Shown one piece after another: positions 29,437 through 35,649 of a stretch of DNA of 64,000 nucleotides. Position 1 is the stretch's first letter; each line of letters opens with the position of its first letter. Source of the DNA: Komagataeibacter xylinus (GTDB lineage Bacteria > Pseudomonadota > Alphaproteobacteria > Acetobacterales > Acetobacteraceae); assembly GCF_004302915.1 (NCBI RefSeq), contig NZ_QQBI01000005.1, positions 62,001 through 126,000 on the forward strand, given 5' to 3'. A program made the position numbers and the translations under genes. A model generated the notes under the pieces. That model saw only the letters and a list, made by a program, of their open reading frames with translations. It had not been told where the DNA came from and ran no database searches.

Positions 29437-30870
29437 ATGGGGGGACAACCCGCGACCCGACCCAAAGCCGCATTCTGCACAGGCAGCATTGTCCGCCATG
29501 TGGTGGTCATGGCCGGTACGGGTGCCATTGGCCTGATGGCGGTGTTCCTGGTTGACCTGCTGAACCTTTTCTACATTTCATGGCTTGGTGACCCCGCGCT
29601 GACGGCGGCCATCGGCTTTTCCGGCGTGATCAGCTTCGTGCAGATCGCGGTTTCCATCGGGCTGTCGATTGGCATCGGCGCCATTACCGGCAGGCTGATC
29701 GGCGCGGGCAAGATGGAGCAGGCGCAGCGGGTCGCGTCATCGTTCGGCATTGTCATGCTCGCCTTCTGCCTGCTCATCGGGGTGTTCACCGCATGGCTCG
29801 CACCGCTGCTGCTGGCCCTGCTCGGGGCACAGGGGAATGCGGCACGGCAGGCGGCCACGTTCCTGCGCATCATCTCGCCCGGCCTGCCGCTGATCGCAGC
29901 GGGCATGGGGTGCTCGGGCCTGCTGCGCGCCATCGGGGCCGCACGCATTTCCATGAACGTGACACTGATCGGCGCCATGATCTCGGCCATCGCCGACCCC
30001 GTGCTGATCTTGATCCTCGGGCTGGGGCTGAAGGGGGCGGCGATCAGCACCATTCTCTCGCGCGGGATCGTGGCGCTGATGGGCTTTCGCTGCGCGCGCC
30101 GTCATGGCCTGCTGGCCTGGCCCGTGCGCACCCATGTCGTGGCGGACACAAGGCTGGTTGGTCAGGTGGCCATGCCCGCCATCCTGACCAACCTGGCAAC
30201 GCCGGTGGGCAGCGTGTTCGTAACGCATGCCATGGCGGGGTTCGGGCTGGCGGCAGTGGCAGGGCAGGCGACCATCGAGCGGATCGTGCCGGTGGCCTTC
30301 GCCTTTGTGTTTGCCCTGACGGGATCGGTAGGACCGATCATGTCGCAGAACCTTGGCGCAGGTAAACTCGAGCGCGTGCGGGCAACACTCGTGGCCTCGC
30401 TGTGGCTGGTGGCAGGCTGCGTGGCGCTCACATGGGTCATCCTGTTCCTGACCCAGGACCTGGTGGTGCGGGTGTTTTCAGCGCAGGGCACGGCGGCGAT
30501 GCTGATCCACCTGTTCTGTAACTGGACCATTGCGGGCTACGTGTTCATCGGCATGCTGTTCGTGGCGAATTCCGCCTTCAACAATCTGGGCCACCCGCTG
30601 TATTCCACGCTGTTCAACTGGGGGCGGGCGACACTGGGCACCATTCCGTTCGTGTGGATTGGCATGCGTTACGGGCCGGGCGGCGTGCAGGTGGGGCAGG
30701 TGCTGGGCAGCGTGCTGTTTGGCTCCTGCGCGGTGCTTACCGCCTTTTCCGTGGTGCGGCGCCTGCACCCGGGCGACCAGGCCACGCAGCAGGCCATGCC
30801 GGTCATTCCCCCGCCCCAGACCGGCGAAGCGGGCCTGATCGAACTCGACGAACTCGACCACTCGGCCTGA
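29437..30870 (+). CDS. MATE family efflux transporter
   Basis: 477 residues, about 12 hydrophobic segments in two homologous halves. MATE features include VFLVDLLNLFYISWLGDPALTAAIGF near the N-terminus, GIGAITGRLIGAGKMEQA and, in the second half, TGSVGPIMSQNLGAGKLERV. The role is cation-coupled export of drugs or metabolites across the inner membrane; the substrate is unknown. Transcribed alone, with an unusually AT-rich 564-bp region upstream and a 3'-UTR repeat downstream. Confidence 0.9.
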   Translation: MGGQPATRPKAAFCTGSIVRHVVVMAGTGAIGLMAVFLVDLLNLFYISWLGDPALTAAIGFSGVISFVQIAVSIGLSIGIGAITGRLIGAGKMEQAQRVASSFGIVMLAFCLLIGVFTAWLAPLLLALLGAQGNAARQAATFLRIISPGLPLIAAGMGCSGLLRAIGAARISMNVTLIGAMISAIADPVLILILGLGLKGAAISTILSRGIVALMGFRCARRHGLLAWPVRTHVVADTRLVGQVAMPAILTNLATPVGSVFVTHAMAGFGLAAVAGQATIERIVPVAFAFVFALTGSVGPIMSQNLGAGKLERVRATLVASLWLVAGCVALTWVILFLTQDLVVRVFSAQGTAAMLIHLFCNWTIAGYVFIGMLFVANSAFNNLGHPLYSTLFNWGRATLGTIPFVWIGMRYGPGGVQVGQVLGSVLFGSCAVLTAFSVVRRLHPGDQATQQAMPVIPPPQTGEAGLIELDELDHSA

Positions 30871-31084: not shown

Positions 31085-31160
31085 TGGTGGAGCCAAGGGG
31101 AGTCGAACCCCTGACCTCCTGAATGCCATTCAGGCGCTCTCCCAACTGAGCTATGGCCCC
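31085..31160 (-). tRNA. tRNA-Ala (anticodon GGC)
   Basis: A 76-nt cloverleaf with encoded CCA. Acceptor GGGGCCA/TGGCTCC, D arm GCTCAGTTGGGAGAGC, anticodon stem CCTGA/TCAGG around loop ATGGCAT, T arm with GGTTCGA. Confidence 0.97.
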
Positions 31161-31257: not shown

Positions 31258-31902
31258 TCAGGGCAAGATAATGCCATGCGTGCGCAGGGCGGCGAGAAGG
31301 GGCAGCAACGGCAGGCCCATGATGGCCGACTGTTCCCCCTCGATGCGGGAGAAAAGCTGGATTCCACGCCCTTCAAGCCGATAGCACCCCACGCAGGACA
31401 GAATCGCCTCGCCCTCGGTGGCCAGATACCATTCAAGAAAGGACTCGCTGAAGGCACGCATATGCAGCACCGGGCAGCTGACATGGTGCCAGAGCTCGCG
31501 GCCATCGTGCAGCAGGCTCACCGCCGTATGCAGCACATGCGCGCGGCCGCGCAGGTGCCGCAACTGCGCGCGGGCCGTGCCGCGGTCAGCAGGCTTGTCG
31601 AACCATTCCTCCCCGCACGACAGGATCTGGTCCGCGCCGATCACCACCGTGCCGGGTGCAACCTTGACCGCGCGGGCCTTGGCGCGCGCCAGCGCAAGGG
31701 CTGCCGCGCTGGCGTCGTGCCCAGCAGTACGCATGGCCGCGCGAATGGCGTGTTCATCCACATCCGCCGCCATGAACCCGGCCGCAAGCCCCGCCGATTC
31801 CACCAATGCGCGCCGCGCGCTGGAGCCGCTGGCCAGTACTATCGGTGGCGACTCCACCTGTAATGGGGCGGGCTTTAGTACTAAACTGGAGTCGTCTGGC
31901 AT
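31258..31902 (-). CDS. Maf family nucleotide pyrophosphatase
   Basis: 214 residues from the ATG at 31902; another in-frame ATG at 31932 would add 10 residues. Maf motifs: VLASGSSARRALVESAGL (variant of LASxSPRR), VDE, and the catalytic VVIGADQIL with Asp. HVLHTAVSLL and the C-terminal GLPLLPLLAAL are also typical. Maf proteins hydrolyse non-canonical or specific NTPs and affect division. It is the left neighbour of the putative origin; the GTAC cluster begins inside its first codons. Confidence 0.9.
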   Translation of the reverse strand: MPDDSSLVLKPAPLQVESPPIVLASGSSARRALVESAGLAAGFMAADVDEHAIRAAMRTAGHDASAAALALARAKARAVKVAPGTVVIGADQILSCGEEWFDKPADRGTARAQLRHLRGRAHVLHTAVSLLHDGRELWHHVSCPVLHMRAFSESFLEWYLATEGEAILSCVGCYRLEGRGIQLFSRIEGEQSAIMGLPLLPLLAALRTHGIILP

Positions 31903-31947
31903 CGCGCTCTCCGTACTGCGGAAGTGAAACATTTAATTCGGGGCTCT

Positions 31948-31978
31948 GGAGTACTGGGGTACATGGGGACAGTACTCC
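31948..31978. repeat. inverted repeat 1 in the putative origin
   Basis: Arms GGAGTACTG and CAGTACTCC, 9 bp, perfect, 13-nt spacer with another GTAC. Confidence 0.8.
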
Positions 31979-32074
31979 AAACAATTCTGTGCCGTACCGA
32001 GTACCGTGGACAACGTGTACCCGCCCCATTTCGGTGAGTTGTACACAGCCTTATGTCGGTACATCCGGGATAAC

Positions 32075-32108
32075 TTTCCGACTCCGTGGGAATCCTTGGA
32101 GTCGGAAA
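32075..32108. repeat. inverted repeat 2 in the putative origin
   Basis: Arms TTTCCGACTCC and GGAGTCGGAAA, 11 bp, perfect, 12-nt spacer. Confidence 0.85.
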
Positions 32109-32128
32109 CGGTACACACTGTGGGGAAA

Positions 32129-32162
32129 ACGGGGTACATTTTCGGAAACATGGGTACCCCGT
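32129..32162. repeat. inverted repeat 3 in the putative origin
   Basis: Arms ACGGGGTAC and GTACCCCGT, 9 bp, perfect, 16-nt spacer. The right arm abuts a DnaA-box-like TGATCCACA. Confidence 0.8.
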
Positions 32163-32309
32163 GATCCACAGCACTAAAAGCACATCAACAAATTTCTTTC
32201 TCTTTTCTTTTATTGTTTTGAAAGGGGCGCGCGCGGTGCGTCCTGCCCGCTATCCGTCGGCTCGAAAGTACGAGATAGTCCGGCCACAACGAAACAGAAC
32301 GACGGATCG

Positions 32310-33371
32310 ATGACAGATACACGCAAACCCCTGCTCGCCACCCTGATGGGAGAGGCGACCTGGCCCCCTCCGGTATGGCTGATGCGGCAGGCGGGCCGGT
32401 TCCTGCCGGAATTCCGGGCCCTGCGTGAAAAGGCTGATTTCATAACACGCTGCATGACCCCCGACATGGCGGTCGAGATCACACTCCAGCCCATCCGCCG
32501 TTTCGGCATGGATGGGGCCATCCTGTTTTCCGATATCCTGATCCTGCCCTGGGCCATGGGGCAGTCGCTGGAATTTGTGCAAGGCCGTGGCCCCGTCCTG
32601 GGTGCCGTGCGCTCGCAGGCCGATCTCGACCGGCTTGACCCGGGCAGGGTGGCGCAGGCGGTCGAACCGGTCATGCAGGCACTGCGCAGGCTGCGGGCCA
32701 TTGTCGATGGTCCGGAGGCGATTGGCCCTGCACGACCGGGGCAGGTGACACTGATCGGCTTCGCGGGCGCACCGTTTACGGTGGCGTGCTACATGGTGGA
32801 AGGCCATGGCTCGCGTGAGTTCGAGGAAACCCGCAAGCTTGCCTATACCGATCCCGCGTTCTTTGACCGGCTGATCGACCTGCTCACCACCTCAACGGCG
32901 GATATGCTGTGCGCCCAGATCGAGGCCGGGGCCGAAGCGGTCATGCTGTTCGACAGCTGGTCGGGCCTGCTGCCGCCCTCGCAGTTCCGCAAGCATGTGA
33001 TTGAACCGGCAAAGCGCATCACCGCCATCATCAATGCCCGCCACCCTGGCGTGCCGGTCATTGGCTTCCCCCGCCTGGCGGGGCTGATGGCGATTGAATA
33101 TGGCCGTGAAACCGGCGTGAACGCGATGGCGCTCGATACCGGGGCGGACATGAAGGCCGTGGCCGACAGGGTGCCCGGCACACTGGTGCTGCAGGGCAAT
33201 CTCGACCCGATCCGCGTCCTCGCTGGCGGCGAAGGCATGCGCACCGAGGCGCGGGCCATCCGCGATGCCATGAAGGGCCGCCCGCATGTGTTCAACCTTG
33301 GCCACGGTGTTATTCCCACCACGCCACCCGAGCATGTGGGCGACCTGATCAAGACCATCAGGGAGGTCTGA
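32310..33371 (+). CDS. hemE: uroporphyrinogen decarboxylase
   Basis: 353 residues. The N-terminal signature VWLMRQAGRFLPEFR carries the substrate-binding Arg residues. LFSDILILPWAMG has the key Asp and IGFAGAPFTVACYM the second family signature. It decarboxylates uroporphyrinogen III to coproporphyrinogen III, upstream of the HemN step encoded at 22.1 kb. It is the right neighbour of the putative origin and leads the hemE-HAD-hemJ unit (3-bp gap, then 8-bp overlap). Confidence 0.97.
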   Translation: MTDTRKPLLATLMGEATWPPPVWLMRQAGRFLPEFRALREKADFITRCMTPDMAVEITLQPIRRFGMDGAILFSDILILPWAMGQSLEFVQGRGPVLGAVRSQADLDRLDPGRVAQAVEPVMQALRRLRAIVDGPEAIGPARPGQVTLIGFAGAPFTVACYMVEGHGSREFEETRKLAYTDPAFFDRLIDLLTTSTADMLCAQIEAGAEAVMLFDSWSGLLPPSQFRKHVIEPAKRITAIINARHPGVPVIGFPRLAGLMAIEYGRETGVNAMALDTGADMKAVADRVPGTLVLQGNLDPIRVLAGGEGMRTEARAIRDAMKGRPHVFNLGHGVIPTTPPEHVGDLIKTIREV

Positions 33372-35573: not shown

Positions 35574-35649
35574 GGGGCTGTAGCTCAGATGGGAGAGCGC
35601 CTCGTTCGCAATGAGGAGGTCAGGGGTTCGATTCCCCTCAGCTCCACCA
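35574..35649 (+). tRNA. tRNA-Ala (anticodon CGC)
   Basis: A 76-nt cloverleaf with encoded CCA. Acceptor GGGGCTG/CAGCTCC, D arm GCTCAGATGGGAGAGC, anticodon stem CCTCG/TGAGG around loop TTCGCAA, T arm GGTTCGATTCC. Confidence 0.97.

Follow-up and report, generated by a model that had tools for sequence, protein, structure and literature searches.

A conserved GTAC array at the predicted chromosomal replication origin of acetic acid bacteria and a candidate solitary methyltransferase of the RsaI type

A dense array of the palindromic tetramer GTAC, located between maf and hemE in most genera concerned, is almost certainly the chromosomal replication origin (oriC) of acetic acid bacteria. Comparison of sequences further points to an origin that is marked by methylation, which we consider probable, and to control of initiation in the manner of Dam and SeqA, for which the chances would be about even. 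The joint reading, namely an oriC whose GTAC sites would be methylated by a solitary M.RsaI-type enzyme such that hemimethylation times initiation, is moderately favoured.

The window analysed is a stretch of 64,000 nucleotides from a draft Komagataeibacter genome (G000:C57:62001-126000). Among named HemE loci, that of K. xylinus is the closest (99%). The following features of this window are referred to below. R1 denotes a sequence-only model of the array.

31836..32170, no strand assigned: GTAC array with 14 sites, the outer three of which lie within the 5' end of the maf frame
31954..32171, plus strand: conserved array core, its extent given by the match to the family-wide model R1 (G000:C57:93954-94171) and by the alignment
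32041..32044, no strand assigned: GTAC within TTGTACACAG, invariant in the aligned genera and overlapping a DnaA-like 9-mer (two mismatches)
32130..32161, no strand assigned: CGGGGTAC...GTACCCCG pair, which holds the two GTAC sites with the strongest conservation (no loss in 32 of 32 representatives)
32162..32170, plus strand: DnaA-like box TGATCCACA, one mismatch to TTATCCACA
32005..32013, minus strand: DnaA-like box TTGTCCACG, two mismatches
32119..32129, minus strand: two overlapping DnaA-like boxes, TTCCCCACA and TTTTCCCCA, two mismatches each
32190..32223, plus strand: T-rich, AT-rich tract (AT about 0.6), candidate unwinding element; a pyrimidine-rich stretch is kept in other genera
31258..31932, minus strand: maf (Maf-like protein) reading frame, start position uncertain
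32310..33371, plus strand: hemE (uroporphyrinogen decarboxylase)

Within the 335 bp between positions 31836 and 32170, GTAC occurs 14 times (at 31836, 31878, 31913, 31951, 31959, 31972, 31994, 32001, 32017, 32041, 32059, 32111, 32134 and 32154) while 0.3 copies would be expected on the background of the remaining window (Poisson p ~5e-19). This recount bears out the dense cluster reported in the original prediction. No other 325-bp stretch of the window is as dense in GTAC, and 2000 dinucleotide shuffles of the array region averaged 3.1 copies and never exceeded eight. Seven of 16 genome-wide matches to a pattern of closely spaced GTAC triplets fell inside the array. One extra copy is located beyond it at 32268.

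Model R1 matched an array in 73 of 299 Acetobacteraceae genomes, representing 24 of 102 genera (E<=1e-20). In named genomes of Komagataeibacter, Novacetimonas, Gluconacetobacter, Acetobacter, Ameyamaea and Gluconobacter, 600 bp upstream of hemE contain 10 to 16 copies of GTAC (roughly 0.2 to 1.3 expected), and the main sites keep a near-constant spacing among these genera. Lichenicoccus and some environmental genomes have six to eight copies upstream of hemE. Across 32 representatives, mean identity was 0.94 in GTAC columns vs 0.58 in other columns. Among the 16 palindromic tetramers GTAC alone was strongly enriched (332 observed vs 10.9 expected), the next being TTAA with 1.8-fold enrichment. 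What the sites have in common is GTAC and no longer motif, as flanks differ from site to site; at some sites the flanks are also conserved, beyond what methylation alone would need. The spacing pattern was matched once or twice in many of 385 alphaproteobacterial genomes, and none of the matches outside the Acetobacteraceae had the flanks of the array. A general alphaproteobacterial feature was thus ruled out. In other Acetobacteraceae the homologous maf-hemE region is recognisable and usually contains just one GTAC, adjacent to a DnaA box, for which reason the dense array looks derived. Many Acetobacteraceae that are not acetic acid bacteria have their oriC marked by such a GTAC-poor homologue (L340-L359), with GGGTACCCC next to a DnaA box and with GGGGATAAC repeated.

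Three perfect inverted repeats bearing GTAC had been described in the array, together with the suggestion that GTAC-centred dyads are bound by a clade-specific regulator. Two of the repeats exist: that at 31947-31979 has 10-bp arms, and that at 32075-32108 has 11-bp arms and contains GANTC and no GTAC. The third, near 32129-32162, forms the centre of a pair of 17-nt arms that is imperfect, with 82% complementarity. In the cross-species alignment the GTAC tetramers were kept and the repeat at 32075-32108 was lost, and hence the dyads are not the defining feature and were rejected as the functional unit. The suggestion of a dyad-binding regulator is thus supported in part only, as the sites have GTAC in common and no longer palindrome; the comparison of related genomes that the original prediction had called for showed conservation of the GTAC cluster but not of the dyads as such.

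Five 9-mers with at most two mismatches to TTATCCACA are present in the array region vs 0.7 expected, so that the degenerate DnaA boxes noted earlier are real. In 28 arrays, DnaA-like boxes with at most one mismatch numbered 40 vs 1.4 expected. The region thus has the cluster of degenerate DnaA boxes that is typical of a bacterial oriC, binding of DnaA itself being predicted. The T-rich tract at 32190-32223, which may serve as the unwinding element, would complete the usual arrangement of an oriC. Sites of the CtrA type (TTAA-N7-TTAA) are absent from the array region even if one mismatch is allowed, in agreement with the earlier statement; the region lacks in this respect the sites of a CtrA-controlled origin of the Caulobacter type. 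GANTC, the CcrM-type site, is about fourfold enriched in the arrays (60 observed vs 14.7 expected) at positions that are not fixed.

The location of the origin was further analysed by GC skew, sampled in 20-kb stretches. In the window, the cumulative skew minimum lies at 29,497, which is 2.4 kb from the array. The array of Acetobacter G565, at 2,488,512, lies between a stretch of negative skew (2,465,001-2,485,000) and one of positive skew (2,492,001-2,512,000); the opposite switch is found at around 1.0 Mb, roughly half a chromosome from the array. In G545 and in Komagataeibacter G014 the array is near a contig end where the sign of the skew changes. A change from negative to positive skew at the array, as is characteristic of oriC, was thus found in G565, G545, G014 and the Bombella-like genome B3987. 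With a skew minimum at the array and a cluster conserved in relatives, the assignment as oriC passed both of the tests by which the original prediction had beforehand agreed to be refuted.

The most stringent test was provided by the Bombella group, in which the array is separated from maf and hemE. Bombella, Parasaccharibacter and B3987 possess an intact maf-hemE locus devoid of the array, which is found elsewhere, about 21-32 kb away, on contigs equal in length to those that bear hemE. A scan upstream of hemE had suggested loss of the array in Bombella; this was wrong. In B3987 the array occupies 887,196-887,403 and hemE is situated at about 912,000, i.e. about 25 kb apart. The cumulative skew minimum of this genome (886,445) is less than 1 kb from the array and not at hemE. 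As the minimum is at the array despite the distance of hemE, the origin signal tracks the array and not hemE. The array of the Bombella group (L252-L255) has been moved away from maf-hemE by local rearrangement.

By the usual convention, the GC-skew maximum marks the terminus. Published oriC positions in the genus Acetobacter are predictions. For A. pasteurianus 386B the origin was put close to dnaA (PMC3751514), and for A. cerevisiae KSO5 it was assigned to the GC-skew maximum (PMC13209655). The array of Acetobacter cerevisiae (L063) adjoins hemE, in conflict with the latter position. No GTAC cluster was evident near dnaA, where six copies were counted in 3.5 kb.

Matches to PF01555 in a sample of 33 genomes comprised two widely conserved methyltransferases. 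One is CcrM-like and present in all 33 genomes. The other, of about 280-300 amino acids, was found in every array genome of the sample and carries the motifs TSPPY and DPFMGTG; its nearest solved relatives include N4-cytosine methyltransferases. Judged by gene names assigned from sequence inspection, its gene adjoins mltA and a gene for an Smr-domain protein, and no gene for a partner endonuclease lies beside it in the loci read. The enzyme, encoded within a cluster of housekeeping genes, is thus a conserved methyltransferase without a partner endonuclease in these loci, as in systems of the Dam type. In the genome from which the window was taken, its gene occupies G000:C13:112902-113702 on the minus strand. 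In-frame stops that had been flagged in some array-bearing species fall at the normal C terminus, and truncation of the gene was dismissed. In Acetobacter G565, a second, longer copy of the putative GTAC methyltransferase is encoded near an integrase gene (L220:3346-4476).

In a profile search the enzyme was detected in 130 of 299 Acetobacteraceae genomes, including all 73 with the array. At the level of genera, enzyme and array occur together in 24, the enzyme alone in 27 and neither of them in 51, and there is no genus with the array alone (Fisher p ~2e-9, with kinship ignored); shared ancestry alone could explain this co-occurrence. The 57 genomes with the enzyme and without a dense array mostly have one to three copies of GTAC in the homologous origin, which shows that the enzyme is not sufficient for the array. 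At most it is necessary. Outside the family, no such methyltransferase was detected in 367 alphaproteobacterial genomes at E<=1e-40; a relative with about 53% identity is located on a Paracoccus plasmid.

RsaI cuts GTAC, and ScaI cuts AGTACT. Homologues of the second methyltransferase in the cyanophages Syn19 and ACG-2014j (43-45% identity) overlap a gene annotated as R.RsaI endonuclease; PADLOC classifies this neighbour as a type II restriction enzyme and not specifically as RsaI, which is the annotation. The phage and Acetobacteraceae methyltransferases have the same best PADLOC model (PDLC03295). They also have in common the segment GHFKP(V/I)NS, which is absent from a distant homologue paired with a ScaI-family endonuclease, and they are set apart from that homologue in a tree of which only the broad split is safe because branches are long. 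The enzyme therefore appears to belong to a family of methyltransferases paired with annotated RsaI endonucleases, with M.RsaI itself reached via the phage proteins as proxy. SMRT data have shown that M.RsaI generates m4C at GTAC (PMC6256690). In acetic acid bacteria the enzyme likely methylates GTAC, and the methylated base is probably N4-methylcytosine.

In the proposed mechanism, DnaA would bind to the degenerate boxes in the array and open the adjacent T-rich tract. The GTAC sites would be methylated, probably to m4C, by the solitary and vertically inherited M.RsaI-type methyltransferase. Passage of the replication fork would leave them hemimethylated for a time, and reading of this state may limit or time re-initiation, as with GATC, Dam and SeqA in E. 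coli. In its most specific form, with m4C at GTAC controlling initiation through a solitary RsaI-related writer and a postulated SeqA-like reader of the hemimethylated form, alongside CcrM and GANTC, the proposal is a tentative one, with the odds slightly against it.

Several other explanations of the array were considered. It is unlikely, though deserving of attention, that the region is oriC and its GTAC sites are bound by a dedicated protein (an origin regulator or architectural factor) with methylation uninvolved. Such a protein would be in line with the near-constant spacing of the sites, the conserved flanks at several of them (e.g. GGGGTACATTTT and GGGTACCCC) and the occurrence of the methyltransferase in genomes devoid of the array. 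However, flanks vary, it would be unusual for a protein to recognise a target as short as GTAC alone, the analysis yielded no candidate protein, and an enzyme with fitting predicted specificity is present in every array genome. A methyltransferase target also fits better than a dyad regulator because a tetranucleotide palindrome is clustered at the origin and a matching solitary methyltransferase exists. Less probable still is that the GTAC sites are lineage-specific weak DnaA boxes read by DnaA alone. The invariant TTGTACACA is indeed only two mismatches away from TTATCCACA, but most sites (GGGGTACATTTT, GGGTACCCC and GAGTACTGGGG) do not resemble DnaA boxes, and recognisable DnaA-like boxes are found beside them.

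One might take the array for a regulatory element of maf or hemE and not for an origin, as it is positioned between these two divergent genes in most genera. Its persistence about 21-32 kb from this locus in Bombella, Parasaccharibacter and B3987, together with the skew minimum that follows it in B3987, rules out such an element for practical purposes. Least credible is chance clustering or an assembly artefact, given the background probability (p ~5e-19) and recurrence in 24 independently assembled genera.

Methylation-marked origins of this general kind are known. The oriC of E. coli is associated with GATC sites, Dam and SeqA. The origins described here resemble it in that one 4-bp palindrome is clustered across the origin and interspersed with DnaA boxes, and in that every genome with the cluster has a solitary methyltransferase; they differ in the tetramer (GTAC), in the enzyme (TSPPY, RsaI-like family) and in the base, probably m4C and not m6A, with methylation being predicted here. 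In Caulobacter and Rickettsia, oriC is linked to hemE and has CtrA sites. Proximity to hemE and degenerate DnaA boxes are shared with these origins; the GTAC array, the absence of TTAA-N7-TTAA sites of the CtrA type and the separability of the array from hemE are not. Enrichment of GATC at origins has been documented by Blow et al., who established origin clusters of motifs of solitary methyltransferases as a pattern, e.g. TTAA in Arthrobacter, CTCGAG in Nocardiaceae and an m4C motif in Haloarchaea (PMC4752239). Here, too, a motif cluster is conserved at a putative origin and occurs together with a solitary methyltransferase that is itself conserved. It differs in motif, enzyme family and lineage, in the occurrence of the enzyme also without the cluster, and in being a prediction from sequence while those cases were measured methylomes. 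Origins of Burkholderia cenocepacia, methylated at CACAG and GTWWAC (PMC7364216), similarly have many sites for solitary methyltransferases adjacent to DnaA boxes, with other motifs in another lineage and with measured instead of predicted methylation. M.RsaI of Rhodobacter blasticus (CP020470, locus 04320; PMC6256690) has the same predicted target and, by the phage proxy, the same family, but is part of a restriction-modification system, whereas the acetic acid bacterial gene has no adjoining endonuclease gene. The kind of system is known, and what is new is the motif, the family of the enzyme, the base expected to be methylated and the lineage. The literature searched, which left out most subscription papers, contained no account of GTAC origins or of GTAC methylation in acetic acid bacteria.

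For bacteria used industrially in the production of vinegar and cellulose, in which the published oriC positions are predictions, the array provides a concrete origin. It further provides an enzyme and a motif with which control of initiation by methylation can be tested, in a lineage where a CcrM-like enzyme is already present. If true, a bacterial m4C case would join the short list of origin-marking methyltransferases, and there would be a bacterial Dam/SeqA-like system based on m4C.

The origin region of the window is flanked on both sides by genes for tRNA-Ala, at 31085-31160 and 35574-35649 (anticodons ggc and cgc).
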